Assembly (NCBI GenBank): GCA_001599355.1
Contig: BCGQ01000003.1
Span: 64,468-128,467, forward strand
Direction of reading: 5' to 3'
Origin: Nakazawaea peltata
Taxonomy: Eukaryota; Ascomycota; Pichiomycetes; Alaninales; Pachysolenaceae
Length of the DNA: 64,000 bases
This document shows, piece after piece, positions 983 through 62,479 of the stretch. Every line of letters begins with the position of its first letter. The first letter of the stretch is position 1. The translations under genes and the position numbers were made by a program. A model generated the notes under the pieces. It was given only the letters and a program-made list of their open reading frames with translations. It searched no databases and had not been told where the DNA came from.

Positions 983-2446
983 TCATTGGCTACCATCTTC
1001 TTCTTCCTTTTTCGGAACAACAACTTGCTCTTCTCCATCATCTAATTGATAAAGTTTTTCCACCTCTTTTTCATTGGTTTCACTATTTACACAACTGTTT
1101 TCTTGAACGGTACCATGAACCAATTCTTCACCTGTAGAGGTTGGAGCTCCGGCAAATGAAAGGAAGTCTCTTCTGACTTCAATGTAATCGAAAGCAAATT
1201 CTCCAACTTCATATTCATCCATACCTCTTTCTTCACCTTCTTCAGTAGCTCTCAATTGCAAGTATGGAATTTTGTTCATAATAACACAGATCAATGCGGT
1301 AATGAAAACAGAATATGCCAGGGTGAATAAAACCCAAACAATTTGTTTGTAGATAGATCTGTAATGATGAGAGATGAAACCACCTTCGATACCTTCTGAG
1401 ACACCGTCGTAACTGATGATGGCAGAATCACCGAAGAACAGGTTGAATAACAATCCGACAACACCTGCCATTCCGTGCTCTGCCAAAATATCTAAGGAAT
1501 CGTCAATATCGACAAGGAATTTCAATTTGGTAGAATAGTTACAAACGATACCTGCGACAATTCCTTGGATAACAGATCCGTACAAGGTGATAATACCAGA
1601 TGAAGGGGTAGCCAGGACCAAACCGGAAATACATCCACTACATAATCCAACAGCGGACCATTTCTTCTCGATTCTCCAATCTAAAATACACCAGGTCAAA
1701 GCACCGAATGCAGCACTAAGATGGGAGTTCATCATCAGGTACAGTACTCTCAATGAAGGATAGATACAAGTAAACCCGTTGAAACCTAACCATCCAAAGT
1801 ACAATAAGATAGTACCTAAAGTAACAAATGAGACATTGTGAGGTCTGAAATTAATCAATAAAGACTTCTTACGTTTACCCAAGAAGTAACTATAAGTGAT
1901 ACCGGAGAATCCACTCAAAATTTCAACCGGTCCACCTCCAGCATAGTCTAAAACACCCCATTGATAAGCCCAACCATTTGGTGACCAAACAGAGAAACAT
2001 ACAGGCAGGTAACAAATAGTACTCCAAATGAAACAGAAAACCAACATTGGAATCAAACGACCTCTCAGGTAAATTGCACCAGCCAAAATCAGTAATGTGA
2101 CACACATGAACATCATTTGGAAAATAGCAAACAGCATCTCTGGATAATCACCATCACCACCAAGAACATTTTGGAATCCAAAATTGTGCATATTACCAAT
2201 GAACTTATTGTTCACCAGGGTGGAACTAAAGGCTAAAGAATAACCCCAGAAGTACCATTGGAACATTCCTACAAAACCCAGCATGATACAAGCAATGGTG
2301 ATATGTAAAGCAGAATCTCTCTTGGATAACCCAGCATAAAGATATGAAAGCCCAGGAATCATGATGAATACCATCAGAGACCCAATGACTAACAAGATTG
2401 TCAGACCATCATTGTATTGACTTTCTCTTTTTAATAAATCCAACAT
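983..2446 (-). CDS. Ammonium permease, Amt/Mep family (Mep1/Mep3 type)
   Basis: A 487-residue polytopic plasma-membrane permease that imports ammonium. I start at the ATG at 2446 (MLDLLKRESQ); the longer open frame begins with TTG. Family landmarks in order: FQWYFWGYSLAFS (~62-74), SPNGW (155-159), LDYAGGGPVE (166-175), HNVSFVTLG, FGWLGFNG, NSHLSAA, CSGCISGLV, AEHGMAGVVG (H324 is the second pore histidine), and a charged tail after LRATEE. The first pore histidine is replaced by Glu175, as in yeast Mep1/Mep3 and unlike Mep2. The usually strict FNGGS is FNGFT here, so this copy is divergent. CTG codons at 1613-1615, 1736-1738 and 1742-1744 fall at Ala positions of the family. GATAAG-type sites (for example 2783-2788) upstream suggest nitrogen control, by inference. 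Confidence 0.9.
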   Translation of the reverse strand: MLDLLKRESQYNDGLTILLVIGSLMVFIMIPGLSYLYAGLSKRDSALHITIACIMLGFVGMFQWYFWGYSLAFSSTLVNNKFIGNMHNFGFQNVLGGDGDYPEMLFAIFQMMFMCVTLLILAGAIYLRGRLIPMLVFCFIWSTICYLPVCFSVWSPNGWAYQWGVLDYAGGGPVEILSGFSGITYSYFLGKRKKSLLINFRPHNVSFVTLGTILLYFGWLGFNGFTCIYPSLRVLYLMMNSHLSAAFGALTWCILDWRIEKKWSAVGLCSGCISGLVLATPSSGIITLYGSVIQGIVAGIVCNYSTKLKFLVDIDDSLDILAEHGMAGVVGLLFNLFFGDSAIISYDGVSEGIEGGFISHHYRSIYKQIVWVLFTLAYSVFITALICVIMNKIPYLQLRATEEGEERGMDEYEVGEFAFDYIEVRRDFLSFAGAPTSTGEELVHGTVQENSCVNSETNEKEVEKLYQLDDGEEQVVVPKKEEEDGSQ

Positions 2447-3801: not shown

Positions 3802-4514
3802 ATGGCTATTTGCGGAGGGTCGAAGAAGCCAGGTAAGTTTTGCCGACACAGAGATACCGAGTGATGATCTGAGATTTTTGTTACTAACTTTTGATTGCAG
3901 TACAACGTAAGATTGTTATCTTGGGAGACGGTGCTTGTGGTAAGACATCGTTATTGAACGTTTTCACTAGAGGATATTTCCCACAAGTGTACGAGCCAAC
4001 AGTATTTGAGAATTATATTCATGACATCTTTGTAGACGGACAGCAATTACAGTTATCATTATGGGATACTGCGGGACAAGAAGAGTTCGACAGATTGAGA
4101 TCTTTAAGTTATAGTGACACACATTGTATAATGTTGTGTTTCAGCATTGATTCCATGGACTCTTTGGAAAACGTAGAGAACAGATGGGTAGGTGAAATCT
4201 TGGAGCATTGTGAAGGTGTTAAATTAGTGCTCGTTGCATTGAAATGTGATTTAAGAATTGATGAAGATAACAACAATCAAGTCGATGATATAATAGTAGA
4301 TAGAAGAAAGAAGAAGAAGTTGGTCACATATGAAGAAGGTTTACTGGTTGCCAAGAAGATCGGTGCTTTGAGATATTTGGAATGTTCCGCTAAAAAGAAC
4401 AGAGGTGTAAACGAAGTGTTCACAGAACTGGCCAGATGTGCTTTGAGTGCTAAACCAAAGGGAGCTGCCGCCGCTGAGGAAGAACAATCTTCTTCCAAAT
4501 GTATCATTATGTAA
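3802..4514 (+). CDS. RHO3: Rho3 small GTPase (spliced)
   Basis: A Rho-family GTPase that directs exocytosis and actin polarity at the bud. Exon 1 is 3802-3832 (ATG plus ten codons), the intron is 3833-3900 (GTAAGT, TACTAAC at 3882-3888, AG), and exon 2 is 3901-4514; the product is 214 residues. The P-loop is GDGACGKTS, switch I is YEPTVFENY, switch II is DTAGQEEFDRLR, the guanine motif is ALKCD, SAK follows, and the tail ends CIIM, a prenylation CaaX box. The order and wording match yeast Rho3 almost residue for residue. There are only two CTG codons, 4344-4346 (EEGL-x-VAKK) and 4428-4430 (FTE-x-ARCAL); both align with Ala in yeast Rho3 (GLAMAKK, TEAARVAL). Confidence 0.96.
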
Positions 4515-6930: not shown

Positions 6931-8010
6931 TTACAATTCGTCGATGTATGGCAAAGCGTCGGTGTTTCCTACAACAACGTAGTTGAATTTGTCAACCTTG
7001 ACGGTGTCCTTGACAGCCTTGGTCTCGACACCAGCTTCCAATTGAGCGGCAGAGGCGTACTTGGATAAGCCGGTAGCAGACTTCAATTCCTTGGCGATGG
7101 CCTTGATGGTGGTGGACAACAGAGCAGCGTCCAGAGAAGAAGCAGAAACGGTGAAGATGGAACCTTCAGCGTAGGAGGTGACGCCGGAGTCAATTTCAAG
7201 AGACAAAGTAGACTCGAATTTAGCAGTCAAAGATGAAGCCAAAGCAGCGAAAGTGGCTTCTTCACCCTTTGGAACAGCAACACCAATAGCAGCAGTGGTC
7301 TTGGAAGAAGGCAATCTAACTCTAGTTTGTTCACCAGTGAAAGTCTTAGAGCTGACAGAAGAAGCGGCAGAACCTTCTGGCAAAAGAGAGAAAGAAGAGG
7401 TGTCCAAAAAGTTGGCCAAATCCTTCTCAACGACACCGAAAGCCTTAATCTCCAAGTTTTGCTTGGTGTAGAACTTCTTGCTGTAAGCCTTCAAGTCATC
7501 CAAAGTGATCTTGGTGATACCATCGTAGTACAAAGAGTTACCCAAACCGGATCTGAAGGTCAACTCGTGTAATTTCTCAACGGCTTGAATCTTGGAGTTG
7601 TATTGAACACCTTGGAACTCGTGCAAGGTAGTTGGTAAAACCAATTCGGAGAATTCGTGTGGCTTGAAAGACAATTCACTCAAAGTAGAACCCATAGCGT
7701 TCAAGTAGTATGGTAAGTCTTCTCTCAAGAATTGAGCTTCCAAGATGATATCATCTCTGGTGACAAAGGACTTGTAAGCACCACCCAACAATTCGGATTC
7801 TCTCTTCAATCTTAAACCGGACTTGCTAGAGGTGTTCAAGAAGTTGAAGTTGCTCAACAAGTGGGACAAACCGGACTGCGAGTTGCTCTTGGAACCGGCG
7901 TTCTTGACAACAACTTGCAACTTGGAGACTGGAGATTCAAATTCCTTAACAGCCAATTTGAACCCGGAAGCGCTTGTGGCGTATGATCTTCTGGAAACTC
8001 TAGTGAACAT
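6931..8010 (-). CDS. QCR2: Cytochrome bc1 complex core protein 2
   Basis: 359 residues starting at the ATG at 8010 (MFTRVSRRSYA); an upstream in-frame codon would only add six residues. The Arg/Ser-rich start is a mitochondrial presequence. It follows yeast Qcr2 through HLLSNFNFLNT, RESELLGGAYKS, DLPYYLNA, FRSGLGN, YDGI, YTKQNLE and the ending LPYIDEL (yeast LPYLDEL). It belongs to the M16 peptidase-like core proteins but lacks a catalytic zinc site, as usual for core 2. Codon use is strongly biased (AAG, GTT, TTG), as expected for an abundant respiratory protein. It is divergent from RPC82, and paired CCAAT boxes upstream fit Hap2/3/4/5 control. Confidence 0.95.
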   Translation of the reverse strand: MFTRVSRRSYATSASGFKLAVKEFESPVSKLQVVVKNAGSKSNSQSGLSHLLSNFNFLNTSSKSGLRLKRESELLGGAYKSFVTRDDIILEAQFLREDLPYYLNAMGSTLSELSFKPHEFSELVLPTTLHEFQGVQYNSKIQAVEKLHELTFRSGLGNSLYYDGITKITLDDLKAYSKKFYTKQNLEIKAFGVVEKDLANFLDTSSFSLLPEGSAASSVSSKTFTGEQTRVRLPSSKTTAAIGVAVPKGEEATFAALASSLTAKFESTLSLEIDSGVTSYAEGSIFTVSASSLDAALLSTTIKAIAKELKSATGLSKYASAAQLEAGVETKAVKDTVKVDKFNYVVVGNTDALPYIDEL

Positions 8011-8637: not shown

Positions 8638-10473
8638 ATGACTTCTGGAACTAGAGACATGATCCATAAAGGGCATCAACAGCCCCAGTCTCCAAAAGCA
8701 TACTTGTATACAGAGATCATCAAATCACATCTCGGGGAACAGCTGCTGTTGGTGACTTCATTCTTGATCAGTCATGGCAGATTAACCGTCCCTCAGTTAG
8801 CATCATATACTACTCTCCCGGCATTTAATGTGAAGCAAACATTGGTTTCTTTGATCCAGATGGGAGCAGTTACATATTCCCAACTGACAGAGTCCAAGCG
8901 CCGTTCAAAAGCCCCACTTCATCACTATGATTTCAAAGAAGAAGGTGTGTGGAAATTATTATATGCTGGTGATATCATACATCAAATCCAGCTCATCTAC
9001 CAAAATGACCACGTCACCAAGATTATACAAAATGCATTGAATTATGGTCATTTCTGCATGAAGGATTTCATGGCAGTCTCTCAAGATCCGGATGTTGATT
9101 TCGATCTGTTATTCATTAGATTAGTCCAAGATAAATGGCTTGTTCCAATCAACAAGAACTATTTCCAAAATAGATTTGATCTTTATAACGATTTGTTCAA
9201 GCTGCAATTATTGAAGTTTAATAGAGATAATAGACTGGTGAGCGAGTCTAAAAAGATCCTGGAAGTTAAACAAATCACCAATGATTTATTCTTGAATCTG
9301 GTTGTGAACAGTAAAAATGAGATCAAATGTTTCAAAGTGGTCAATGGAGAACAAAAAATGATCGATGATATCCCATTAACGGTTAATGTAAATAGATTCT
9401 TACAAAGAAAAAGATCTATTCTGTTACAAGATTTGGCAGCTCATACGGTAGGACCATTGTCTGCCCGTATTTATGGCATAATAATGAACAAATATGAAAA
9501 GAATTCGCTTGACTGTGTGGATGAATTGGTTCAAGTATTGAAATATTCCAACAATATAATGGTTACTTCGACAGGATTAGATCCCGAACTGGTCAAATCT
9601 CTGCAGAATTCTGCTTTTTTGCAAAATATAAAACAAACCTCATTCAATACTAATGACATTATGAAAGAGATCAGTTTCTTGAACACCAAAGCTAAGCAAG
9701 ATTCAGACAAAATCGTGTTAGAGAACTCGATCATTTATCCAAGTCAATTACAAAATGGATCCAAACTTAACGGTCTGGATGGCCCACCAAAGAAAAAAAT
9801 CAAATTAGAAGTTTTAGACGAAGCGATGCCTCATGATGATTTTACTAACGGTGGGAACGATAATGTTTCTACATTGATGCAACATTTGAAATTACTTGCG
9901 CAGTATGGGTTCCTTAAAGAAACTTCCCCGGGCAAATTCTACATCCCTTATGACACTGCATTGTCCAAATTAAAATCGGAGACCGTATTGAAATTAATTA
10001 AGCTCATTTTCGGACCAAGTGGCCTCAGAATAGTTAACTGTGTGAAAAATCTTCGACTTGCCGATGAAAAAATGTTGAATAATGTTCTTTTAATGAAAGA
10101 CGCAGTGATTAGATCGGTGTTGAATAAGTTGACAATGTCGAATATCTTGGAATTACAAGAGATCCCAAAAACTAGTGACAGATTACTGATCAGAACGGTG
10201 TACCTGTTCAAATTTAACAATGAACATCTGATCCGCAAACTTAAAAACTCCTTGTATTATAACCTTGGAGAAATTTTGAGCAATATCGAGGCTCTCAAAA
10301 TGGAGAATAAAATTTTGCTCGATAAATGTAACAGAGATGATGTTAAGGGGAAGGAATTTGAGGTATTAATTGAGAATGAGTTACTTAAATTGAAGGAAAT
10401 TTTCCAACAAGAATCCAATGATTTGAAGAAGTATATTCGGATACTTTCATTGATTCAAGTTTTTGAGTTCTGA
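8638..10473 (+). CDS. RPC82: RNA polymerase III subunit C82 (Rpc3)
   Basis: 611 residues. Rpc82 forms the C82-C34-C31 subcomplex that helps Pol III open tRNA and 5S promoters. The N-terminal winged-helix module reads KSHLGEQ..., GRLTVPQLASY and LVSLIQMGAVTY, paralleling yeast KAHLGER, GRLSVREL and LVSLTQLRCVKY. Later segments RRSILLQDLA, IYGIIMN, PGKFYIPY, FGPSGLRI and CNRDDVKG also match in order; a basic KKKIKLE motif precedes the acidic linker. CTG codons at 8743-8748 (two in a row) align with Ala-Ala of yeast LGERAASV, and the one at 10186-10188 with Ala of ADRSASRAVFLF, which supports CUG=Ala. Confidence 0.95.
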   Translation: MTSGTRDMIHKGHQQPQSPKAYLYTEIIKSHLGEQLLLVTSFLISHGRLTVPQLASYTTLPAFNVKQTLVSLIQMGAVTYSQLTESKRRSKAPLHHYDFKEEGVWKLLYAGDIIHQIQLIYQNDHVTKIIQNALNYGHFCMKDFMAVSQDPDVDFDLLFIRLVQDKWLVPINKNYFQNRFDLYNDLFKLQLLKFNRDNRLVSESKKILEVKQITNDLFLNLVVNSKNEIKCFKVVNGEQKMIDDIPLTVNVNRFLQRKRSILLQDLAAHTVGPLSARIYGIIMNKYEKNSLDCVDELVQVLKYSNNIMVTSTGLDPELVKSLQNSAFLQNIKQTSFNTNDIMKEISFLNTKAKQDSDKIVLENSIIYPSQLQNGSKLNGLDGPPKKKIKLEVLDEAMPHDDFTNGGNDNVSTLMQHLKLLAQYGFLKETSPGKFYIPYDTALSKLKSETVLKLIKLIFGPSGLRIVNCVKNLRLADEKMLNNVLLMKDAVIRSVLNKLTMSNILELQEIPKTSDRLLIRTVYLFKFNNEHLIRKLKNSLYYNLGEILSNIEALKMENKILLDKCNRDDVKGKEFEVLIENELLKLKEIFQQESNDLKKYIRILSLIQVFEF

Positions 10474-15163: not shown

Positions 15164-16291
15164 TTATAAAACATAGATAGGCATTTTACTTTCAACAGCA
15201 TCTAATACAACGAAATTATTGAAACATTGTTTCCCCGATAAACATTGAATGATATCTTGAGCAACTGCTCCTCCAATGATGGCACCTGTAGGTTGGAATT
15301 GAGCGTAACTTTGTCTGACCACATCACTTAATTTACTCTTATCAATCTTCAAGTTCTCTAATTCTAACATTTTAAGTATTTCTCCAAGCTTGGATTCGAA
15401 TTCTTCATCGTCAATAGACACATTTTCGGTCGGTACTTTGTTAAATGGGTAGAATTCAAGTAAGGTCAAAATGCAAGGCAAAGTAATCGATATTCTATTC
15501 AATTTTCTTTTGGTGTTGAAGAATTCTTTGATCTTAAGGGTAGTGTCTTTGCCCAATAATTGGTCAAATGGTTTGTATACAGCCTTCAATTGACATAAAT
15601 CTACCAATTGGTCATTCTCTTTCTTACGTTCAGTCAGTATCAATTCACGGACACTATCAATTGGACCCAATTTTTTAGACAACGACAGGGTCGTCACTTC
15701 AGATTTAGTAGTATATATATGCTCAATGAGATCAACAAATATGTATCCATACAACCCATGTAACCCTGTACTATAGAATGGGGTATTGTTTTGTCTAGTG
15801 ATGTGATTCAATTTGACAATCTGATCTTTTGTACATTCGGTAGCAACCACCAAGTCGAATTTCTTATAAAAATCGACATCTTCATAATCAAGAGGGTCAC
15901 AATGTATCTGTAAATCAACTGTAGGATTCAATTCCTTAATACTATCAAACGACAGCTTCAATACTTGCTGTCCAACCTGAGAAGAGTTGACAAAAAAGTT
16001 GGAGTCCAACAGTTCTTCTTCTAATATAGAGCTATCAGCTATATGTAACAGACCTACACCACTCAACATTAAATTCTTGGTGACTTCTACTCCAATAGAC
16101 GAGAGATTAATCAACAAAATCTTCGAAGATCTGATCCTTTGTTGGGCATGAATACCCCATAATCTGATTTGACGATCATATAACGCGATCTCATCTATGA
16201 TGGTGTTAGTATTTCCTGATTGGGCGGTGATTTTGGTTCATTTTTTTGGTTTATACTTACCGGCTGAAAGTTTTGAGTCAGATGCCGTCAT
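15164..16291 (-). CDS. AOS1: SUMO-activating enzyme subunit Aos1 (spliced)
   Basis: 353 residues. Aos1 pairs with Uba2 to activate SUMO (Smt3). Exon 1 is 16261-16291 (MTASDSKLSA), the intron is 16195-16260 (GTAAGT, TACTAAC, TAG), and exon 2 is 15164-16194. Splicing restores DEIALYDRQIRLWG, the invariant E1 N-terminal motif with the adenylation arginine, then LLINLSSIGVEVTKNL. Later SGVGLLHIADSS, LDYEDVDFY, TGAIIGGAVAQDI and the C-terminal beta strand LDAVESKMPIYVL fit the family. Without the exon the protein would lack its catalytic arginine, so the intron is well supported. It abuts PRP4 tail to tail with no spacer. Confidence 0.93.
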
Positions 16292-18162: not shown

Positions 18163-20181
18163 ATGGATTTGTTCAAGATTTTGGACTCTCCACCAGAGCC
18201 ACTGATAGTGGATCCCAATAATTTCAAAGTCGACCAACAATATGCTATGTCAAGAGACTATAAAATTATGACACCTTTGACCGATTTTCAGAAGGAATTG
18301 TTCGACCAAATTGTCTCTTTACATTATAGTGATATTTTGAAATTTTACATTCAATTCGAGGATAACGTCGAGAATTTGAAGGACCAGTTGATCAGCGACT
18401 CATTGAAAGTCTTATTGGAGAACAGTTCTCTTGTTAGCAACCATCCTTACTTATTGATCGACCATTTTTTCCCTAAAAATTTGACTTCGAAGGATATTTA
18501 TAAGAAGTTGGTGGACACTAGTGGGAAGTTCAAGGTACTTCACGACTTGGTCAATATAATAGAATCGTTATACGTTCAAGGGACTTCTAGTACATCGGGA
18601 AGAAGATCAGGGAATTATGGAAGCAAATCTCGTAACAATTATTTGAACAATTCGAATTTAACTCCGGGGCAGGAAGTATTCAACTTGGTGATAGCTTCGA
18701 GACCTGGTCTGTGTATGGATTTACTTGAAAGTATGCTCATGGGTCATAATTGTACTATTAAAAGATATTCAGGCGAGAAATTGAGCTCAAATGCAAAGTC
18801 CAAGAAAAATTCACAGTTACAACAAGAGGATGAGAATCCGTTCAATGTACATTTATTGCCGAGTGATGGGTCAAAATTGAACCAACAACTTTATGATCAA
18901 GGTTTGAAAGACAAGAGAAATTTGAATCTTTTAATATCATTTGATATTTCGGTTGACACAGAGGAGTCACATATATCACAATTATTGAAGAACAACCCAA
19001 GGATGCCGATATTAAGATTGGTTCCTAATAATACTATAGAACATATTGCTTTGTTCTTCAGAAAATCATTCAAAGATAAGACAGACACTCTGTATTTAGA
19101 ACCGGTTACGCTGGCTATTGTCTGTTTACGTGATAAAGTGGGATTAATCCCCTCCGAATTAAAGTCTATCTATTCTACCGATTTGAAGTACCTTTCTGAT
19201 TGGTTCAAACAATTATCTCCAGAAACATTATTGAATAGAAATGATTGGAATGGTGAAGAAGTTGCATGGCCCTTACCTGATTTAAGACCAATTGATAATT
19301 TCACCTCCAGAGATGTTGAAAAATCATTATTAAAAGAGGTCACTTTTGAAAATGATGAAGATGAATTATTACAATTACCGAACCATTATAAAACACGTCC
19401 AAAATCAAGGATCTCATATTACAAATCTAAAAGATCCGATGGGGCCTACATTACAGATGTCATTGAATATGAATCTTATAACAAGATCACAGGTATCTCA
19501 TCGAATATCCCAGAAAACACCACGATATTGACCCATAAACTTCTATTAAATTGTAATTTAATCCTCCAAAAATATGGGATAGTCGTTCAAGAGATGGAAA
19601 CTTTCAAGCATATTCTGAAAATCCGAGCCGAAGATATTGACACGGCAAATTCAAGTTATGCCAAAATTTTCAATGAAGTTGAGCTCTTAAAGAAGCAAAT
19701 TCAGGAAAAGGCAAACCAACTCATTAGCAAACAAGAGACATTTGATCAGTTGAAACAAACAGTTCATGAGATAGATGTCAAAGTTTCACAGAATACCGAG
19801 AAGGATGAGTTATTACGTCGTAAAGAATTGAAAGAGTCCATCGAGAACAAGATCAAGAATAAATCACAGGAAAATGATTACATGAACAAAGAAATTTCGA
19901 ATGCGAATAGCTCTATTGAAGAATCCCTCAAACTGATCGAGCTGTTGGAAGCGGAAAATGCCAAGATGAGAGAGCAATTAGACGCAACACAACCGGTCAG
20001 ATACCTGTTTGACAGTGCGCAGAAAAATCAGAATGAGCAGGAGCTTTTAAAATCCAATTCAGAATTGATCCGGGTATTGGAGAAGGATTTAAGAAAGATC
20101 AATGATATTCCAATGTCACAAAAGCTAAGGATCAATGGTGTTAATAATAATATCTATTCCGGACATTCGAGCCGGCGATAA
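18163..20181 (+). CDS. HDA3: HDA1 histone deacetylase complex subunit Hda3
   Basis: 672 residues from the ATG at 18163 (MDLFKILDSPPEP; yeast Hda3 begins MDLLRILDTKPIP). Hda2 and Hda3 dimerise, bind DNA and dock the Hda1 deacetylase. Matches in order: LTDFQKELFDQIVSLHYSDIL, NHPYLLIDHF, SGKFKVLHDL, RPGxCMDLLESMLMGH, IKRY, LLPSDGSKL, PILRLVPNNTIEH, LEPVTxAIVCLRD, VAWPLPDLRPI and DVEKSLL. The C-terminal ~190 residues are a heptad-rich coiled coil (from about 470 to the end) used for assembly. CTG at 19111-19113 aligns with Ala of yeast NVTAAMVILRD. The helicase-like fold of the N-terminal part is known for the family. Confidence 0.94.
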   Translation: MDLFKILDSPPEPLIVDPNNFKVDQQYAMSRDYKIMTPLTDFQKELFDQIVSLHYSDILKFYIQFEDNVENLKDQLISDSLKVLLENSSLVSNHPYLLIDHFFPKNLTSKDIYKKLVDTSGKFKVLHDLVNIIESLYVQGTSSTSGRRSGNYGSKSRNNYLNNSNLTPGQEVFNLVIASRPGLCMDLLESMLMGHNCTIKRYSGEKLSSNAKSKKNSQLQQEDENPFNVHLLPSDGSKLNQQLYDQGLKDKRNLNLLISFDISVDTEESHISQLLKNNPRMPILRLVPNNTIEHIALFFRKSFKDKTDTLYLEPVTLAIVCLRDKVGLIPSELKSIYSTDLKYLSDWFKQLSPETLLNRNDWNGEEVAWPLPDLRPIDNFTSRDVEKSLLKEVTFENDEDELLQLPNHYKTRPKSRISYYKSKRSDGAYITDVIEYESYNKITGISSNIPENTTILTHKLLLNCNLILQKYGIVVQEMETFKHILKIRAEDIDTANSSYAKIFNEVELLKKQIQEKANQLISKQETFDQLKQTVHEIDVKVSQNTEKDELLRRKELKESIENKIKNKSQENDYMNKEISNANSSIEESLKLIELLEAENAKMREQLDATQPVRYLFDSAQKNQNEQELLKSNSELIRVLEKDLRKINDIPMSQKLRINGVNNNIYSGHSSRR

Positions 20182-43874: not shown

Positions 43875-45641
43875 ATGTTTGGTGGTAATAACAATTCTAA
43901 TCCTAGCGGAGGATTCTCTCTCTCGTCTAGTAGTGCTGCTCCTGCCGCCCCTTCAACAGGTTTTAGCTTCGGCGCTTCATCCACCAACAACAATGCATCG
44001 ACAACAGGCAACTCCTTATTTGGATCATCCAATACCTCACAAACTCCTGCTGGTACTGCTGGGGGATTGTTCGGGGCTAAACCAGCTGCTGGTGGTAGTT
44101 TGTTTGGAAGCAGTGGCCAGACTTCCTCTGCTCCTTCAGGTAGTTTATTTGGTAACACCAACAATACACAGGCTACTGGAACATCTGGAAATTTATTTGG
44201 GAATACTACTCAAAACAATTCGAATCCTACAGGTTTATTTGGAAATAGTAATACAGGCACTCAGGCCTCAGCTCCAGCACCATTATTTGGTAACACTAAC
44301 ACCACCAATAACCAATCTGCTCCATCTGCTGGGGGGTTGTTTGGTAACAATAACACTGCCAATAATCAGACTGCTCCAACCGGTGGATTATTTGGAAACA
44401 ATAACACTACCAATAACCAACTGACTGGCGGGTTATTTGGAAATACTCAATCTACACCAGCGACTGGTGGCTTGTTCGGTAACAATAACACCACCAATAA
44501 TCAATCTACTGGGGGGTTGTTTGGTAATACCAATGCCCTGAAACCTTCTGGTGGATTATTTGGTAATAATCAATCGGGCACTACGAGTGGAGGAGTATTT
44601 GGTAATAATCAAAATAATGCTAACACTAGTGGAGGATTGTTTGGAAACACCAACCAACAACAGCAGCAACAACAACAACAGCAAAGTATCCCAGCTATCA
44701 CTAATTCTCAACCTTCATTTAGCTGGAGTCAACAACAAGCACCTCTGTCAAAACCTCTGCTTCTGCAAATGCAACAATACCAACAACAGCATCAACAACA
44801 ACAGAATTCAAACAATTATACACCTACGATAAATGACCAATTCTTGAAGATCAAGAACTCTTGGGATCCAAATTCTCAAAGTTGCATGTTGAAAACTTAC
44901 TTTTATAATAAAACAGATGATATGAACATGATAACAAGACCTCAAGATGAACAACCAGAAGATTGGGAAAAACTGATGAATAACAGACCAAGGGATTATA
45001 ACACTATCCCAGTAAGACTGAGAGGGTTCGATGACTTATTGAAACGTACACAGATTCAAGTTGAGCATGTGAAACAATCTCGTGTGATCTTGACAAAGGT
45101 CAATGAAACATTAGACAATTTGAATAATTTACAGTTATTGCAGATCCAACAGAAATTGACACAATGTAAATTGAACCTGAAGAAGTTGTCGAAGAAATTA
45201 TTGAAGATCGGTATTATTCTTATGATCTTGAAGAATTACAAAATGCAGTTGAGTACATTTGAAGAAACCATTTCACAGAAGTTGAAGGCCTTGAACGATG
45301 AGTTGAAGAATCCAAGTAATTTAGGCAAGTTGAATGAGTTGTGGTCTCGTCTTTCAAATTTGAAGGAACGCGGACGCAATTTGACGCTTCAATTAGAAGC
45401 TATGCATAATAATTTGATCGAGTTCAGTAATACGAATGAACAAAATGTTGCATTGACCAAGTCATCCTCAGGAAAGCAAGGGTCATCTTCCGGAGAAGAT
45501 GCTCACCCAGAGGCCAAAGAACAAGTTGATAAGGAAATTTTGATTAGATTGACGAGAGCATTACAAAAGCAGCAACTGGGTATCCAATATTTGTACGATA
45601 TCTTAGAGAAAGATAAAGCAGCCGTTGAAAACTTGGCCTAG
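43875..45641 (+). CDS. NUP57: Nuclear pore FG nucleoporin Nup57 (Nup54 family)
   Basis: 588 residues from the ATG at 43875 (MFGGNNN; yeast Nup57 begins MFGFSG). The FG domain (to about 275) has nine GLFG motifs plus SLFG, NLFG, PLFG and VFG variants, then a Gln tract. The structured part begins TINDQFLKIKNSWDP and runs through LKTYFYNK, RGFDDLLKR and a long coiled coil (about 375-560) that binds Nsp1 and Nup49 in the channel trimer. CTG at 44973-44975 aligns with Ala of yeast WEEAQRNRP, and CTG at 45018-45020 with Ala of IPILAKGFDDL. An in-frame TTG upstream (43851) is not the start. Confidence 0.93.
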   Translation: MFGGNNNSNPSGGFSLSSSSAAPAAPSTGFSFGASSTNNNASTTGNSLFGSSNTSQTPAGTAGGLFGAKPAAGGSLFGSSGQTSSAPSGSLFGNTNNTQATGTSGNLFGNTTQNNSNPTGLFGNSNTGTQASAPAPLFGNTNTTNNQSAPSAGGLFGNNNTANNQTAPTGGLFGNNNTTNNQLTGGLFGNTQSTPATGGLFGNNNTTNNQSTGGLFGNTNALKPSGGLFGNNQSGTTSGGVFGNNQNNANTSGGLFGNTNQQQQQQQQQQSIPAITNSQPSFSWSQQQAPLSKPLLLQMQQYQQQHQQQQNSNNYTPTINDQFLKIKNSWDPNSQSCMLKTYFYNKTDDMNMITRPQDEQPEDWEKLMNNRPRDYNTIPVRLRGFDDLLKRTQIQVEHVKQSRVILTKVNETLDNLNNLQLLQIQQKLTQCKLNLKKLSKKLLKIGIILMILKNYKMQLSTFEETISQKLKALNDELKNPSNLGKLNELWSRLSNLKERGRNLTLQLEAMHNNLIEFSNTNEQNVALTKSSSGKQGSSSGEDAHPEAKEQVDKEILIRLTRALQKQQLGIQYLYDILEKDKAAVENLA

Positions 45642-50528: not shown

Positions 50529-50982
50529 ATGGTAGATACACTAATGTCTGAGCCCTTTTCTGCCCAAGTGGCTAGGAAGAGATCAAGGAAGTTCACGAGG
50601 TCAAAGTTCGGGTGTCTGAATTGCCGGTCAAAAAAGTGAGTATTTTACGATATATCGTTGGAGGCTATGTTTACTAACTATAGTTAATAGGAAGAAGTGT
50701 GATGAGAAGAAGCCAAAATGTACTGCATGTTTAAAGAATAACGTGGAATGTGTGGTTCCCCCGTTGAAGATTTTAAAATTCGAATATATAAGTGAAGGGG
50801 ATATGAGGTCAAAATTTAAGCATTCAAGTAAGGACTCAGATGCCACTCCAAAGCAAGGAGACAATAGAGATGAGCCACGTTCTTCCGAGATACCTGATCT
50901 TTCCAAAAAGAAGATGGGACCCGACATGGAACTGCAGAATAAAAACAGTTACATGATTTCTTTCCTACTTAATAATGAATAA
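50529..50982 (+). CDS. Short spliced Zn2Cys6 protein
   Basis: Exon 1 is 50529-50635, the intron is 50636-50690 (GTGAGT, TACTAAC at 50672-50678, AG), and exon 2 is 50691-50982; 132 residues. A basic leader (RKRSRKFTRSKF) precedes a fungal zinc cluster GC-x-NCRSKKKCDEKKPKCTAC followed by LKNNVEC. All six cysteines are present, but the second and third are five residues apart where the family has six. This could mean a distorted or inactive cluster, or a splice site other than the one predicted. No transcription-factor middle domain follows. The C-terminal 85 residues are Lys/Ser-rich. It is probably a minimal or decaying regulator. Confidence 0.6.
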
Positions 50983-53309: not shown

Positions 53310-53320
53310 GGTCTATATAA

Positions 53321-54604
53321 TTATTCAGTAGCAAATACTAAAGAAACACCTTCATCACCAGCTGTGATTAATTTATTTCCTCCATTTTGATATGCAAAAT
53401 CTAATATACCCATGTTATGACCTACACCAACGAATAATTCTTCACCTGTTCTGGAATCCCATTTGTAGATTTTACCGTTCATCGAAGATCCAATTAATAC
53501 TGGAGTGTTTGGGACGAATTCTAATTTAGTAATGGCATCTTCCAAAGTGATGGATCTTCTTGGTCTCCAAGTCTTTGTATCGAATAAGATGACGTTACCA
53601 CTCACGAGACCAACGGCTAAGATAGGTTGTACGGAGCACCAAGAAATGGCCTCGAGACTTCCGTCGTAAATATCTTGGTCTTCTTTCAATTCTAAGGCTT
53701 TGAATGTAGTCAAAATAGTACCTGTAGAACCATTAATGATGCACAAATGAGCGTCTCTGGAACCCACGGCAATGATGTTACTGGAGTCCGATGATTCTTT
53801 GGAGATCGAGACCCAAGGAAGATGTAATCCTTTCAATTTGGACTCATCAATCTTCCAGTTTGGTTGGGCAGTGAAACAATTCCAACTTACAATAGATCCA
53901 TCTTCAGAGACAGTGACTAAAGTCAACACTTGGTCATTGTCGATATCAATGAACTCACCATTAGTACAGAAATCTTGATGGTTGAATCCAGACATAAGTT
54001 GATCTACAGACTCATTGTCGATTTGGTATACCCAAACGGAACCGTCAGCGGCACCGAAGGCGAAGGCGTTTTGTTTTGGGTGAACTTTGATCCATGCAAC
54101 TTCTTCAATCTCTTGTAATTCGGCAATTTGGTTCCATTGTTGACCTCTTTTCAGCGATTTATGTACCAAGACCTTACCAGTCATATCACCAGTGATCAAA
54201 TATTCTCCATTGGCGGTGAAACCTCCACTGATAACAGATTCATTGTAATTGTCGATCTTAGTTACTAATTTGGAAGGCTGAGAATGAGTAGTCCAAAGAT
54301 AAGCAGCGTTATCACCACCTCCAGTGACAGCCAAAGGTAAGGAAGGATGAGTGAAAACGGTGAAAACAGAATCAGTATGAGAATCAAAATAGGACCAAGA
54401 GTTATTAGACATATCAATCTCCATGACTTCTTGGTCATCTTCACCTTGTTCTAATTGTTCTGCAGATTCTTCTTCATCGTCATCTTCTTCTATTGGTTCG
54501 GCATCATCTTCAAGGGGTACTTCTTCTTGAACTTCATTCAAAGTCAAGTACTCATCTTCTTCACCTCCTTCAATCACTTGGGTTGGAATTTCTTCTTCAG
54601 GCAT
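53321..54604 (-). CDS. SQT1: Ribosome assembly chaperone Sqt1 (WD40)
   Basis: 427 residues. Sqt1 is the dedicated chaperone of ribosomal protein Rpl10 (uL16). An acidic N terminus (residues 1-65) ends in MEIDMSNNSWSYFDSHTDSVF, matching yeast LEVDMSNNSLTYFDKHTDSVF. It continues GGGDNAAYLWTTHSQP, GDMTGKVLVH, FAFGAADGSVWVYQI, LMSGF, TVSEDGSIVSWNCFT, LVSGNVILFD, GHNMGILDF and ITAGDEGVSLVF, closing an eight-blade propeller. All landmark repeats are present in order. The gene is head-to-head with the 5.3 kb gene-poor region. Confidence 0.95.
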   Translation of the reverse strand: MPEEEIPTQVIEGGEEDEYLTLNEVQEEVPLEDDAEPIEEDDDEEESAEQLEQGEDDQEVMEIDMSNNSWSYFDSHTDSVFTVFTHPSLPLAVTGGGDNAAYLWTTHSQPSKLVTKIDNYNESVISGGFTANGEYLITGDMTGKVLVHKSLKRGQQWNQIAELQEIEEVAWIKVHPKQNAFAFGAADGSVWVYQIDNESVDQLMSGFNHQDFCTNGEFIDIDNDQVLTLVTVSEDGSIVSWNCFTAQPNWKIDESKLKGLHLPWVSISKESSDSSNIIAVGSRDAHLCIINGSTGTILTTFKALELKEDQDIYDGSLEAISWCSVQPILAVGLVSGNVILFDTKTWRPRRSITLEDAITKLEFVPNTPVLIGSSMNGKIYKWDSRTGEELFVGVGHNMGILDFAYQNGGNKLITAGDEGVSLVFATE

Positions 54605-57600
54605 GCTTCAGTATCTTCTTCTAATGCTACTCCCTATATCTTTAGGTTAGAGATGAGAGGAAAATTTTTTTAACTTAGTAATCGGAAAGTGTCAAAAAAG
54701 GGTAATTTGATATGGGGCGCACTACTAATATCGAAGGATGTGGCAAAAGGTGACAAATCAAGGTTGGCTCGGGAATTAGCGCTGGAGTCGTTTGGGGGAT
54801 GAGCTGAAACTCAGAATGGATCCCGTCTAAATGTTGGAAAGGTTGCTAGTAGCTTAAATGGAAATATGTGGGCGCAGTGAGTGAATAGGATGCGGTGTGA
54901 ATGGGTCACATACAAGCATGTGAGAGCAGAGCATCACCACCTATGAGTCCGAGTGTTATAGTTGCCATCCAAATATTAGGTGTTTATTTGTCTAATGCAC
55001 CTACTTTCCAAGACTGTTGGACGGTGATGAGCTCATCTCTCTGTGTGAAAAATAGTGTGAAAAGGTGACCTCATTCGGAAAACAGCTTTCTGCCATCCGC
55101 CTATGTCACCACAGCAAGAATAAGCTAACTTTAAACTTCTCTCTTAAGACTGTGCTTTTTTTAAGCCCTCAGACATCTTGCTTGAATCTACACTAGCATT
55201 AGCTCAGCTCCTCTGCACAGTTACTCCAAATAGTGTGAAAGTTGAATTTTATGGAGTCACGTTTCTTTTTTCCTAACGTTGTCTGCGCATAATAATCTCT
55301 TCCGCTCCTTTCTTTTTCCGCTTTTTCATATAGCGTTTGAGTTCTGTTCTAGGAGCTTATTCCTAGATTAGAGGACGTTCTGATCTCCGTCCGGTTAGTA
55401 ACCAAATCAGCATGAATCCCGATATTGTGTTCATGTTGAAATGGATTGAGGCTCTATTTCATGTTTGCTGGTGTGTTTTTTTCTTATTGAAAAATAATAA
55501 AAGGGGTTGATTATTTAGACCCCATAACTTACTTCGGTTTCTTCAATAAATATTATTTAAAGTTATTGTTGGTCTGTCTCCGTTCTGAAATTCTCTAGTT
55601 TTACCTAAACTCTGGTTTTGATCCTGTTCTCTCTTAATGATCAACTATAAAGCGTAAGAAAAACTAAATATATAAAATATATTGAATAGAGTGCATAAAT
55701 TTAGGCAGAAACAATTTCAAACTTACTAGTAATAAATACACTTTAACCTCCAAAATTAAACGACAACACAATGTATAGAAAAGTCAACACGCTTCAGATA
55801 GTTCACTAACAACAAGACATGTTACTCCTAAACCATATTTAGGTTTATTTATTTCTTTTACTTCTTTTTATTCGTAACCAAGATGGTCGAATTGGCCGAT
55901 CACATTTAACATCAAAGAGAGGTCCCGATTTTATCAAACCTGAAATCAACAACAAACCTTTCTACAATATATTTCTTCAGATCTAGTACAACATATGTCG
56001 TTCATAACTTCCAGATGACCAGTAGGGGTGATTATTGGGTGTTAGTAACAAACTTATTCACTATTATGTTGCAAATCTTGAATCAATCTTCTCTCCCCTA
56101 CGGCTACACTCTATGAAATAAAGACCAAAAACACAATACAATACCAGAAATTGTTAATCTTCTTCCTTCTTGCCACCTTGAAAATAAATCTGGAGAAAAG
56201 GCACTTAGATTTCACAAAAAATATCCAAAAATCAGGGATTACCCACACCGAAAATATAAATGTTGTCTAGATAATAATTACTAAGGCCGGGGCGGGTCAA
56301 GTAATACTGTATAATTACATGCTCGGGGTTACAAAAATATTGAGTAAAAGGGGAGCCAGCTTCTCTAATTATCAGAATAGGTACCCCTCATTATGCATAG
56401 AATCTACCTTCTATAACCCTAGGATCCGTTTGTTACTACCCTGAGCATTTTTGCTAATCTTCTTAAGAAGACAAAGCTGATCCCCAACAAATTTAAATGT
56501 TGGATATGGTTCTCCGTGACTTTGTACATCGAAGCATCACGTAATCCAAGTCTTAAAACTTAAATAACAGTTATAATATCACAAGTGAATTAACCTCATA
56601 TTGACGAGGTCGCAAGTTTCTCACGGTCAGCAAACAGGTATCTGGTGATTCGAAGCCACGTAATAATTATAATCGAACACATACGCTCTACAAATGCTAC
56701 GACTTACAATTACTTTTGGTTTCGAAACGAACCAGAGTTTTAAAAGCTCAAATGAAACAGAAGGCAACTTAAAAGGTATAACCATTCTAGACTCTTAAGG
56801 CAATTATCTTCCCTCTTCATTCGACTACAGGAAACTGTTACTTAGCCTCACCAGATCATATTTTTTGACTTAGACAATTACTCAAGAAATTAATCAAGTC
56901 TGCGCAACATGAATACTCAATTCGCATACAAATTCTTTTCCAAGAGATTCAGAATAGACAGATTAAACAAAGGAGTTTCAGATTGTGCTCCATCCTATCT
57001 ACGTACAAACTATTGTGTTTGAGATGTTTTCAGCCAACGAGTCATAAATCCTTTACTTTTGACAAATAAAAGCATTTATGCCAATTCTCTGGAATATATC
57101 TGACTGCGGAAGCCTCCGTGCTAGGAAAAATAATTCTAGCATAATTTGCAAATCGCTATTGTGAGGGATCTCCACAGATGCGGAGCGTAACATAGGACCG
57201 CGCATCGATGAGGAGTTATTTTGAAACTAAATCTTAAACTATTGATATATATCCGTTACAAAAGGTGAAAAGAATAGGTAGAATAGCTCTATTATTTCAA
57301 AGCAAATTTGAGCAACCTTTGTTTACACTCGCTCTATTGAAGAAGGATAGCCGGGAGGTCTTAACTTTTGTTCGATCTTTTTCGCTTTCCAATCTGGGTT
57401 TTTCGGAATAATGCAGCTTCCACGCACCTGTAAAACTAACAGCGCTCACAAGATTTGAAATCTGCTGAGGTACGGTAAAACGGCAAAAAAATTGAATTCC
57501 CAAAGTAACATGGCAAATTATGAAGGTGGCTTGCTGGTAGCACTATCATCACAGTATGGGCTCCAACGTATCCGGCTTAGTTGGTGGTGGGTTCCGCTCG

Positions 57601-59890
57601 CCATTCTCGCTTAAACTTGTATATATGCATAAATATGCAGACTCGGAAACACCATGCATACATGTGCGTCTGCAGCTGCGTCATATGTTATGACGTGAGC
57701 GTTCTAGCAGTGTTTTAGCACTCCAAAATTTTTTCGCCCATAAAAGACTGCATATAGGACTATATTGAACACAGTAGCATTCCAATTTGATGATAGCTGT
57801 TGATATCCCTCCCTATCAAATACCAGATTGGTGTTCCACGGCTGTGGGTTCCTTCTCAGGGTGTGCATTAATATTAAAACTAAATCTATGCTAGACCGAA
57901 AAGGTTTGTAAAAAGCACTCGCACTATAAATTAGCTTTTTTTGTTATTTGCTAGGTACATAATAAATATCATGCAGAAATCACGATTTTAAGTTCTCACT
58001 AAAAATGTTCGGGGTATTTGTGTGGACAAAAACCGTTTTGATCTTCTCACTGTAGATACCTTTTTAGAGAGTCGCGCCAATAAAGGATAGATCACAGCTT
58101 CCTTTTTGAGACAATTTGCATTCGTGCCTCTTCTTCAGCACGGGAACTCGGCGGGATATCAGCATTTGCTGTAAGCTCTCTTTTCGTTCCGAAAAGTTCC
58201 AGATTTTCGTAACACCATTAGATTAATACTGCTAGCTTGCGCCAGCGAACAAATCATACCTACTTTTTCAGCCCGACTTGCATCTTATTCACTCAAGGAA
58301 TAAACGCTGAGCAGCATAGTTTTGATGCAGGTAGGTCGTCGTTTCTTTTGTAGGGTGGCCATAAGTTACCTGATCGGTGTGCCCAAAAGAGGTGAGGCAC
58401 CTGTGACAGGGCTTCTGAACTTCAAGTCACAAAAAATAAAATTTCTTCCCCTAGGCAGGTATCAATGCTGTACAAGAACAGGAGCTGGGGTTATTGAATA
58501 GTAAAAGCCGGTACCCAAGACCCCAAAGTGTAGTAGGACGGGGTATAGTAGCAAAGCCTTTATTATTTAAGAAAAGGTTCCAGAAGTTTTAATATATTAC
58601 CTATAGTGCCCACTTCTACCACTCCATTTTTTTCCAAGATCCTTTAAAATTACCTCCGATTATGTAATAAACCCGACTTTAGATAATCTACTTGCTTCGC
58701 TTACACATAAAAGTGTTAAGGTCAATAGAGGATAACACCCCAGCCCACAATGTACTTCTCCTGACTACATGAAAAGCTAGGGCTGTAGTATCATATTTTA
58801 ACGGTCGTGAGGTGTGTACATCTTAAGGAACGTCACTGATTTAAACTTTAAAGTTAAAGAATAAGAAATGTGATTTAATAAATTGGACATCTCAACAAGT
58901 GAAAAGAAACAAGTAGAGAACGTCATCTGGCCCTTATTGCCAACGGACAAGTTACACGGATAAGCTTATTACTTTTCGTTACAAGACAGAATTGACTAGA
59001 AGGAACCTCGAAGCGAGTTCTCTCAAATAATCTTAGTAACGGTGTATGATCCGGGTGCTTACATCGTTTCTTTTTTTATTCTTTCCCGTAATCTGGTATT
59101 ATTTTCCAAAGAGTAAGGGTATAAAGCTTCTGCATTTCCTTCCATCTTGTTCTCGGGTCTACCCAGTCTTTTTATTATTCATCTCCGAGCAGTCATTTGC
59201 TGAAAAAACTTTTGGTGTTCACCCAAATATTATTTGGATTGTTGTATCTCGTTTCTTTGAGATTTGTTCTGAAAACTTCCCGGTTCGTCTTTTAGGCTGC
59301 ACAGTCCTAATCGGAAAAAGAGGAGACACTACAGAGACAGACGCCAGACAGAGAACATTTTTTTCCTTTTAAGACTTTTTTGCTTTTAATCCAAGGGATC
59401 GCTACTTTTTCTGAGCCAAAAAGCCTTACATATTTCTTAAGATCCCCTAAGTTTTTGCATCGCTGAAAAACACACAACAGGATCGAGAAGGTTTATCGTG
59501 ATACTTCAATTCAAAATTCAAAAAAACCTCGAAGATCATAAACCTAATAATATCCGAGGCTGTCAATTTTGATACCTATATATATTTATCCCGAGAGCTA
59601 TTCAGCGCTTTATAGTTGAGGTCTGACTCACTTGAGGATCACTGTTCTTTCACTGGGAGGTTCACATCCTAACTGGGATTTCCTTGATACACCAATTGCT
59701 TGCTCCCAAATAACCGCAAGGGGAAGTGAAGAATTGACCAATCTAATAGAACCTCAATCACATTAAAGCCTTACCCACAGAATAGAAACAATCCAAGGTC
59801 TTTGCATAACTGGTTTATAGCAACTTATTAACATTAAATACTGTTAGTGAAGTTCAGACTTTTAAAAAACTAAACTAATTCAAATTTAAA
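54605..59890. other. 5.3 kb gene-poor region upstream of a Zn2Cys6 factor
   Basis: The largest interval in the window, between the SQT1 start (minus) and a transcription-factor start (plus). No open frame in it looks like a protein; the longest (59046-59372) has no family resemblance. I found no tRNA boxes, rRNA or mobile-element ends. Visible details are a repeated AATAGTGTGAAA near 55050 and 55231, an inverted CGTCAT/ATGACG pair at 57679-57695, and a TATATATATT at 59577-59586 that may be the TATA element of the factor gene. It may be a very long regulatory region, an unseen RNA gene or a centromere; none is shown. Confidence 0.5.
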
Positions 59891-62479
59891 ATGTCGGAAG
59901 GTCAAAATAGTTATTCACAAGATAACACGAGGGATGAGGATCAGTCCCCCTCTATTCCAAATTCGAGAACTTCTCATAATAATTCTGGATTACTGGCTAA
60001 TCAATCAAATGCTCCAAACCCAACTCATATACCCGGTATAAATCAGCCTGGTGCAGTAACAGATCCACAGATCCCATCACAGCAGTCACCCAACAATGTA
60101 TATGGCTACGTAGCATTGATCCCAGGGATGCCAAATCAACAATCGCCGATTCAAGATATGCCAGCTGTCAGTCATGCACGTCAACAGCATATGGGTCTGG
60201 CACCAATTCCTCAGCAGATAACATATATACCACATCCTAATATGCAGCAAACACAAATGATGCCAAATGTCACATATTATGGTGCTTATCAATATCAGCA
60301 AAGGGGTTCACCCCCTCCTCATTCTGTGCTTCTGCCCATATACCTGCATTATCCACACTATCCACACAGACATCAACCGCAGCAGCAAATTTATGCTCAA
60401 AGTTCCTATCCCCCACAAAGCTCACCTCAGCTGCCAAATGAAAATCACAGACCATATCTTGCTGTGTTACCCGAACATGTATCACCTGGGGGCCGAGTTT
60501 CACAAGGTTTCAAACATCCTGTCGAATCCCCTAATCTGGAGCATAATCATGCATCTAGTAACGAAAATGTCAATTTCGAAAGATCAACTGAAATGAGAAG
60601 TTCTGACTCAAATAAAGCAAAGCACGGTCATCCTGATAATTCTTATAATTTAATAAGAGATACATCTCATGGTGTGTCACTTTCCGAAAAATATCAGAAA
60701 TCCGATAAATCTTCTCCAGAGTCTTATGATGACACCGAGTCTAAGAAGAAAAGGAAGAGGTTATCCATCTCTTGTACCACTTGCAGGAAGCGGAAGATAA
60801 AATGTGATAGAAGCAGACCAATTTGTACTCTGTGTCTGAAGAATAACGTTCCTGTTCATTTATGTATTTACGACGATAGTCCTTGGGTATCTTCATTAGT
60901 GAAGGAACAGTCATTACAAACAGAAATTGATTCTTTGATGGAGCAACGGATCAAACTTAAGGACACTGTAAAACAAAGGGAACTTGAAATCCAAAGATTG
61001 AAAGAAGAAATTCTGTCGGGTGGTAAAACTGATAAAACAAGCATTAGAAGTGTAGTCAACTCGGTAACTGAAAATCAACTTGAAATAAAAGATTCAACTC
61101 AGGGAATCAAAAGCTTGAGGAGTTCTGACAGTTATTTTAATTTCCTCAGAGAGAATAAATTGAGCTCTCCATTGTCACGAAAGTTAACTGCTAGTTATAT
61201 GGAAGATCCAAATTACGATTTTGATAATTGGCTTGCTGATCTGCCTCATTTCAAAGTGGTGGAACTGAAATTCCAATACCTATTTGATATAAAATTTGTA
61301 CCAGAATATTTAGCATTGGGGGTCCAAAGAGAAGCACCAGACATACAAGCTATGTTTTTCAAGAATTTCCACCGCAAAAAGGCCGGTAGTTCTAAAAATG
61401 TCTCTAGAGACACCATGGAAGTTTGTTACTGTTTATTGATTTTACAATTTTCTGTGATGTTCAATAAACAAGACGACGAGTTTGCTGACGATATTCCGAA
61501 GATCTTCCATGTTGTTCATATGTATATGAGAAAAGTGTTGGAACATTTTGAATTGGAAGTTGCTTCTCCATCACAAGTACCTTTATTTTTAGAGACACTC
61601 ATTCTTTTTAACAACTTGTGTAATATCATCAGCATCAATATGTCATATTCCAACGTCAATGTCAATTATTTTTTGAGAACAATATTTCAACAATATGAGT
61701 TGCTTCTGGGGGCCCCCGATGATAACAAAAATATTTGGTTCATGTTGCTTTACCAAGATCATATTATATCAAGAGATATGGGTCTTTGTAACAATTTCAC
61801 TGATTCAGAGGTTCCTAAATTTGAATTTGATGATGATAATTTTGACGATATTGCTCTTCAATCATTGATCACAATTAGAAGGCTGAGACAAAAGAATGCT
61901 GTAATGCAACTAGTTTCTTTTTATGAGAATCATTTCTTCAGATTTGACCCTAAATTCTATGCTAACTTCCATATCAGAACTCCTATAACAGGTGTTAATA
62001 AGGATAAAAGATTTGCAATCACGATATTACTTCTTGATCTGTGTGTTGAAGAGCAGAACCAAGACCAACCCAAATATAATGAGGCATTTGTTTTCCTTGT
62101 TAAAATTACTAGTTGGATTTTAGAACAAATACTTTACGAAGAGTCATGCTCCAAAAATCGTTGTCTTCAAATCACTATCCTGCCACTTCTCAAACTGAGT
62201 ATTTTAAGATTCTCAGTCATCCTGATCAATAAGATGAAAAAAGAGGTCTCTGAGGGTAAAGAGGCCGCAAAAGACCCAAGTATTTGGGACCTCAGTTTGG
62301 CGGAATTGGAGAGGAAAATGATGAAGGCTGATTTACAGTCGGAAATTGATTTTGTTTCAGGATTCAACAAGGCGCTTGGACAGATCAGAGAATATATTGA
62401 GCATATAGATCTTTTTACTGGAGACAAGAAGTGGATCGAATTTTTCGATAAGCTACTCAAAAAGATGCAGGAGATCTAA
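59891..62479 (+). CDS. Zn2Cys6 transcription factor, Hap1-like
   Basis: 862 residues. The N-terminal 280 are Pro/Gln/Asn/His-rich and disordered. A basic KKKRKRL precedes the zinc cluster at about 295-324: CTTCRKRKIKCDRSRPIC, then CxKNNVPVHLC, with correct spacing up to the expanded last interval. A linker IYDDSPW and a coiled coil (about 340-375) follow, as in yeast Hap1, whose cluster runs into LCHYMEQTW and a leucine-zipper-like helix. The rest (430-862) is a helical fungal-TF middle region with acidic patches. The closest class is Hap1/Zcf20-like; heme motifs were not seen, so the ligand is open. CTG codons at 60830-60832 and 60836-60838 lie inside the cluster; the first is GCA (Ala) in the short Zn2Cys6 gene at the same position. 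Confidence 0.85.
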   Translation: MSEGQNSYSQDNTRDEDQSPSIPNSRTSHNNSGLLANQSNAPNPTHIPGINQPGAVTDPQIPSQQSPNNVYGYVALIPGMPNQQSPIQDMPAVSHARQQHMGLAPIPQQITYIPHPNMQQTQMMPNVTYYGAYQYQQRGSPPPHSVLLPIYLHYPHYPHRHQPQQQIYAQSSYPPQSSPQLPNENHRPYLAVLPEHVSPGGRVSQGFKHPVESPNLEHNHASSNENVNFERSTEMRSSDSNKAKHGHPDNSYNLIRDTSHGVSLSEKYQKSDKSSPESYDDTESKKKRKRLSISCTTCRKRKIKCDRSRPICTLCLKNNVPVHLCIYDDSPWVSSLVKEQSLQTEIDSLMEQRIKLKDTVKQRELEIQRLKEEILSGGKTDKTSIRSVVNSVTENQLEIKDSTQGIKSLRSSDSYFNFLRENKLSSPLSRKLTASYMEDPNYDFDNWLADLPHFKVVELKFQYLFDIKFVPEYLALGVQREAPDIQAMFFKNFHRKKAGSSKNVSRDTMEVCYCLLILQFSVMFNKQDDEFADDIPKIFHVVHMYMRKVLEHFELEVASPSQVPLFLETLILFNNLCNIISINMSYSNVNVNYFLRTIFQQYELLLGAPDDNKNIWFMLLYQDHIISRDMGLCNNFTDSEVPKFEFDDDNFDDIALQSLITIRRLRQKNAVMQLVSFYENHFFRFDPKFYANFHIRTPITGVNKDKRFAITILLLDLCVEEQNQDQPKYNEAFVFLVKITSWILEQILYEESCSKNRCLQITILPLLKLSILRFSVILINKMKKEVSEGKEAAKDPSIWDLSLAELERKMMKADLQSEIDFVSGFNKALGQIREYIEHIDLFTGDKKWIEFFDKLLKKMQEI

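Follow-up and report, generated by a model that had tools for sequence, protein, structure and literature searches.

How is the codon CTG read in the genes of this stretch of DNA? The 64,000 bases analysed here (the window; 38.1% G+C) carry tightly packed genes on both strands, the majority of them open in a single frame, and a first-pass annotation made from the letters alone had proposed that CTG in these genes specifies alanine instead of leucine. Our analysis gives the same answer. The window almost certainly comes from the nuclear genome of a budding yeast that reads CTG as alanine, and this yeast most probably belongs to the CUG-Ala clade (the order Alaninales: Pachysolen, Nakazawaea and Peterozyma). 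CTG falls at alanine positions of homologues and of paralogues within the window, and its alignment partners resemble those of true alanine codons; we therefore take it to be read as alanine. This code is already known, not new, and the annotation's identification of it as that of Pachysolen and relatives agrees with what is reported in PMC5951914.

The main test uses alignments to homologues. Ten proteins, from 10 of the 29 open reading frames, were given leucine at every CTG and then searched against PDB chains, so that any bias in the alignments runs against alanine. For each codon the residue of the best homologue was counted, with one best match per gene in the main test, which held 2,912 non-CTG cells at 43.8% identity. 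The ten genes contain 73 CTG codons, 52 of which lie in the stretches entered (50 facing a residue and 2 facing gaps). Blocks left out of this count were 309-406 and 609-610 of RPC82, 22-313 of NUP57 (FG repeats), 110-120 of GRS1, 103-126 of RHO3 and 207-293 of AOS1; alignments covering the HDA3 coiled coil came from non-best chains only. A tally of this kind had been proposed as a check on the first-pass claim, and CTG proved to stand at alanine positions more often than at leucine or serine positions: the partners of the 50 codons are alanine 16 times, leucine 5, serine 5, glutamate, isoleucine and lysine 3 each, and others 15. Alanine faces 9 of 339 other leucine codons (Fisher p = 4.6e-10) and 24 of 206 serine codons (p = 0.0009), and the pattern exceeds chance. 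True alanine codons face alanine 42 times, serine 10 and leucine 8 among 106, shares like those at CTG (p = 0.38, 1 and 0.76, respectively).

A likelihood comparison over all 20 amino acids points the same way, with alanine at +17.9 bits, serine at -2.9, threonine at -8.5 and leucine at -57.4; BLOSUM62 alone gives +21.7 for alanine, +2.5 for serine and -30.6 for leucine. Alanine ranks first whichever of the ten genes is removed, and in 4828 of 5000 bootstraps. As a control, the likelihood test was applied to the 47 other codons that have 15 or more cells each. It assigned 46 of them correctly, the one miss being GCC (25 cells), for which threonine scored above alanine and which we take as noise. 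The other sense codons appear standard to the same extent, a statement that covers these commoner codons.

Under the standard code, CTG would be leucine and its alanine partners a product of chance or ordinary substitution. Five of the 50 codons do face leucine, and the count rises when poorly aligned stretches are added back. These stretches, aligned with CTG as leucine and consisting partly of FG repeats and coiled coil, contribute 11 codons from RPC82, NUP57 and HDA3 (leucine 5, threonine 2, and lysine, isoleucine, valine and aspartate 1 each), and the remaining 10 of the 73, outside the best alignments, enter neither tally. Over the resulting 61 cells leucine reaches 10 and serine stays at 5, with alanine unchanged at 16; alanine scores +12.7 bits, threonine -12.5, serine -16.5 and leucine -55.2, and alanine is first in 4873 of 5000 bootstraps. 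The PIG-U domain is also best scored with leucine. Against this, the other leucine codons face leucine in 188 of 339 cells (and serine in 13), as opposed to 5 of 50 for CTG (p = 4.4e-10), and leucine lies far below alanine in the likelihood comparison. We regard the probability that CTG is leucine here as negligible.

Profile scores allow the three meanings to be compared domain by domain. All 29 open reading frames were scanned with Pfam under genetic code table 26, and 15 of them also under tables 1 and 12; the 19 domain scores with CTG inside, from 15 genes, were summed. Left out of the sum were TFIIE_alpha, which overlaps HTH_9 (27.8 with alanine, 23.6 with leucine, 23.7 with serine), RPC3_helical and HGTP_anticodon, which contain no CTG, and a CAT match that appeared under serine only. 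Alanine outscores leucine in 15 of the 19 domains (sum 72.1 bits, Wilcoxon p = 0.0018) and serine in 16 (sum 37.0 bits, p = 0.0029), with the largest gains over leucine in the ammonium transporter (15.9 bits), HTH_9 (8.5), IFRD (7.8) and Rpc82 (7.6). A similar Pfam-type method is reported to have re-derived the meanings of CUG, matching the known clades in 453 of 462 yeast species (PMC8629427).

The window also contains paralogues that can be compared codon by codon. Two NCS1-type permease genes stand side by side on the minus strand; their products are identical at 377 of 553 aligned positions (69%), and 14 columns of the alignment contain CTG. Five have CTG in both copies; in the other nine the partner is alanine five times and glycine, leucine, isoleucine and valine once each. 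The annotation had offered this pair, and two Zn2Cys6 clusters, as internal controls, and its partner codons were right: GCC at 32924 and GCT at 30621 in the permeases, and GCA at 50725-50727 facing the cluster CTG at 60830-60832. All three bases must change between CTG and GCT, GCC or GCA. The short open frame that holds part of the second cluster (50620-50982; KKCDEKKPKCTACLKNNVEC) may be a single exon of a spliced gene. Further permease homologues were sought for a scripted test: the search for prokaryotic homologues of the NCS1 permeases gave 89 pattern matches and 0 confirmed cases, and that for ammonium permease homologues from viral contigs gave no match.

A reading of CTG as serine, through a tRNA-Ser with anticodon CAG as in CUG-Ser1 or CUG-Ser2 yeasts, is the closest competitor in the main homologue test, where serine is second-best, and Pfam places serine above alanine in 3 of the 19 domains (ThiF, CTK3_C and CX9C). 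Yet true serine codons face serine in 66 of 206 cells (p = 0.0014 for the comparison with CTG), alanine is more frequent opposite CTG than opposite serine codons, none of the CTG columns of the NCS1 permease pair faces serine, and the Pfam total favours alanine. We consider a serine code very improbable. The first-pass view that leucine or serine fits worse at CTG thus holds up: alanine is favoured by the partners in homologues, by the Pfam scores and by the paralogues within the window.

Several observations weigh against alanine. Besides the leucine and serine partners already given and the rise in leucine once poorly aligned codons are included, leucine scores above alanine in four Pfam domains (POLR3C_WHD, PIG-U, CX9C and Zn_clus) and serine in the three named above; single CTG codons in the ammonium permease, RPC82 and a Zn2Cys6 cluster stand at leucine (contrary sites in the table); and searches of the 64-kb window with ARAGORN, and with Rfam at its gathering score, detected no tRNA gene. 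One could conceive of ambiguous decoding, in which CTG is mostly alanine with a steady minor share of leucine or serine, and the codons at 2132 and 10204, which face leucine in both homologues among the matches listed, would fit it. But leucine and serine occur opposite CTG at the rates of true alanine codons within error, so that no extra reading is needed, and alignments could not reveal a minor reading at the level of a few per cent. We think ambiguity very unlikely, if a shade less so than a serine code, and prefer a plain reading as alanine.

The sites from which the idea arose deserve separate treatment. All 15 CTG codons placed by the annotation lie where it put them, and its statement that RHO3 has exactly two was correct; both fall in exon 2. 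Twelve had been called alanine positions by reference to homologues, and for eight of these the closest solved homologue does carry alanine: both sites in RHO3, the adjacent pair and 10186 in RPC82, 44973 in NUP57, 19111 in HDA3 and 41055 in GRS1. The other four fared less well. In the ammonium permease, both Mep2-type sequences among the matches listed have tryptophan at 1742 and glycine at 1613, and at 1736 one has serine and the other alanine; NUP57 45018 faces isoleucine, cysteine or alanine according to the chain. The list was also selective, omitting contrary sites such as CTG 60836 and the non-alanine columns of the NCS1 permeases. We considered whether the lead of alanine was an artefact of these well-chosen sites and rejected this, as alanine is still first over the remaining 38 CTG cells (alanine 8, leucine 5, serine 4; +2.5 bits for alanine, -7.5 for threonine, -10.0 for serine and -42.5 for leucine). 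It is first there in 4042 of 5000 bootstraps, less clear than for the full set.

CTG sites and the genes that hold them. Homologue residues are those of PDB chains among the matches listed; "closest" is the best-scoring of these.
Feature	Positions	Strand	Observation
RHO3 gene	3802-4514	+	exon 1 3802-3832, intron 3833-3900, exon 2 3901-4514; 2 CTG, both in exon 2
RHO3 CTG	4344-4346	+	Ala in closest (rho1); Glu or Ser in four others
RHO3 CTG	4428-4430	+	Ala in 5/5 Rho1 chains
RPC82, two adjacent CTG	8743-8748	+	Ala-Ala in closest solved homologue, PDB 5fj8 subunit RPC3
RPC82 CTG	10186-10188	+	Ala in closest solved homologue
RPC82 CTG, contrary site	10204-10206	+	Leu in both homologues
HDA3 CTG	19111-19113	+	Ala in solved HDA1 complex subunit 3
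NUP57 CTG	44973-44975	+	Ala in Nup57/Nup54 chains covering the site
GRS1 (glycyl-tRNA synthetase), sole CTG	41055-41057	-	Ala in two homologue chains
NUPM CTG	43446-43448	-	Ala in 4/4 chains
NUPM CTG	43203-43205	-	Ala in 3/4 chains, Gln in the fourth
NUPM CTG	43062-43064	-	Ala in both covering chains
Ammonium permease CTG	2279-2281	-	Ala in both Mep2-type sequences
Ammonium permease CTG	2375-2377	-	Ala in closest homologue, Val in second
Ammonium permease CTG	2090-2092	-	Ala in closest homologue, Ile in second
Ammonium permease CTG, contrary site	2132-2134	-	Leu in both Mep2-type sequences
AOS1-like SUMO E1 subunit CTG	15953-15955	-	Ala in solved SAE1
GAB1 (GPI transamidase) CTG	22582-22584	-	Ala in solved GAB1
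NCS1-type permease copy 1	29628-31307	-	CTG 30474 opposite GCC of copy 2
NCS1-type permease copy 2	32096-33772	-	CTG 33071, 32984, 32879 and 32165 opposite Ala codons of copy 1
Zn2Cys6 cluster CTG	60830-60832	+	opposite GCA (Ala) 50725 of second cluster
Zn2Cys6 cluster CTG, contrary site	60836-60838	+	opposite TTA (Leu) 50731 of second cluster

On these alignments the clearest single gene for alanine at CTG is NUPM (NDUFA8, complex I; 43029-43583), which the annotation had not used: three of its five CTG codons face alanine in PDB 9iho, the closest chain, and the next chain has alanine at these three as well. Gene names beyond a Pfam name come from the first-pass annotation, from PDB molecule names or from general background, and the same holds for the organisms assigned to PDB chains, apart from Pichia pastoris.

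The mechanism reported for the Ala clade would be the natural reading here, the tRNA step being taken from the literature. A tRNA-Ala whose anticodon had mutated to CAG would read CUG; because alanyl-tRNA synthetase has no need of the anticodon, such a tRNA would still be charged with alanine and insert it at CUG, and the ancestral tRNA-Leu(CAG) would have been lost. The alanine identity of a tRNA lies in G3:U70. The CUG-reading tRNA of the Ala clade is described as born by anticodon mutation of a tRNA-Ala gene, the alanyl- and seryl-tRNA synthetases as requiring no particular anticodon bases, and tRNA-Leu(CAG) as lost in the code-changed clades except for four Ser2 species; in that study key positions were also examined by mass spectrometry in 18 species (PMC5951914).

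As to placement, NUPM is closest to PDB 9iho among the matches listed (278.7 bits, the second chain scoring 188), an observation on one protein only. The Leu2 yeasts include Komagataella, Ogataea and Pichia, and Pichia pastoris is, we assume, the same yeast as Komagataella. PDB 9iho is tied to P. pastoris (PMC12487887), and Komagataella is assigned to Leu2, a clade that diverges from the Ala clade within Pichiaceae; the Ala clade itself is given as Nakazawaea, Peterozyma and Pachysolen (PMC5951914). NCBI taxonomy lists these three genera under the single family of Alaninales, Pachysolenaceae, and the clade has been counted at five species (PMC6692504). For P. tannophilus, the account in PMC4986446 has no CUG at highly conserved leucine or serine positions. 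Base composition does not discriminate: Nakazawaea ambrosiae has 42.3% G+C (PMC10106607), against the 38.1% of the window. Our evidence settles what the codon means and not the species, and the source could conceivably be a yeast beyond the Ala clade as now known, with a leucine-to-alanine change of its own. That would be a fourth independent reassignment of CUG; nothing points to such an origin, and we rate it as somewhat less probable even than a serine code. Membership of Alaninales is the placement we favour.

Across 27 genes CTG accounts for 216 of 12,458 codons (1.73%), and, with CTG excluded, alanine makes up 4.4%, leucine 9.6% and serine 10.2%. CTG would then be 28% of alanine-type codons (216/764), with 1/38 in GRS1 and 2/36 in an M16-type gene at 6931-8010, which we take to be QCR2, against 9/13 in CTK3. 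Some genes whose codon bias is strong, GRS1 and the M16-type gene among them, make little use of CTG, and its share falls as that of TTG rises over the 27 genes (rank correlation -0.41, p = 0.033), a weak trend among few genes. The combination of frequent CTG with scarcity in some strongly biased genes may help the study of how a captured codon spreads. CTA is very rare, with 20 occurrences against 207 of CTT and 506 of TTG. Low CTA has been noted in CUG-Ser clades, in a comparison that omitted five CUG-Ala genomes (PMC6701816), and CTA is described as generally unpreferred across the subphylum (PMC11540330).

The gene content of the window is of a kind usual in fungal nuclear genomes. Its Pfam families include an ammonium transporter, a Ras-type GTPase, RPC82, ATG13, WD40/PRP4, ThiF, HDA2-3, PIG-U, CTK3, HLH, two NCS1-type permeases, IFRD, Nup54, a mannosyltransferase and a Zn2Cys6 factor, with others. 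The RHO3 intron, delimited by eye, is canonical for yeast: from the ATG at 3802, ten codons and one base precede the donor GTAAGT at 3833, TACTAAC lies at 3882 and the acceptor AG at 3899-3900 (CAG), and the downstream frame is open to 4514. The AOS1-like frame (15164-16069) begins within its domain, with ThiF matched from profile position 41 and the alignment starting at SAE1 residue 57. It therefore probably has a further exon upstream or a different start. Upstream of the Zn2Cys6 factor (59891-62479) lie 5.3 kb (54604-59891) without a long gene-like frame, in which the listed stop-to-stop frames of at least 80 amino acids measure 81 and 110.

Nuclear reassignment of a sense codon is very rare: three such changes are counted in PMC5951914, all of CUG and all in budding yeasts. 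The CUG-Ala code was discovered in 2016 (PMC5951914) and extended to the whole clade in 2018, and the window adds one more stretch of evidence for this known case. Recognising the code matters in practice, since the standard code would mistranslate 1.7% of the codons in the genes here (216/12,458). Set beside known systems, the window is like the nuclear code of Pachysolen tannophilus (NCBI table 26), shared with Nakazawaea and Peterozyma, in having CTG at alanine positions of budding-yeast genes, and at the codon level, where the two were compared, we found no difference. The CUG-Ser1 yeasts (Candida albicans; NCBI table 12) have reassigned the same codon, and CTA is rare both there, as reported in PMC6701816, and here; in those yeasts, however, CTG became serine, whereas in the window serine scores below alanine. 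The CUG-Ser2 yeasts (Saccharomycopsis and Ascoidea) have likewise reassigned this codon; the window, for its part, has 52 CTG codons in the aligned stretches of ten genes.

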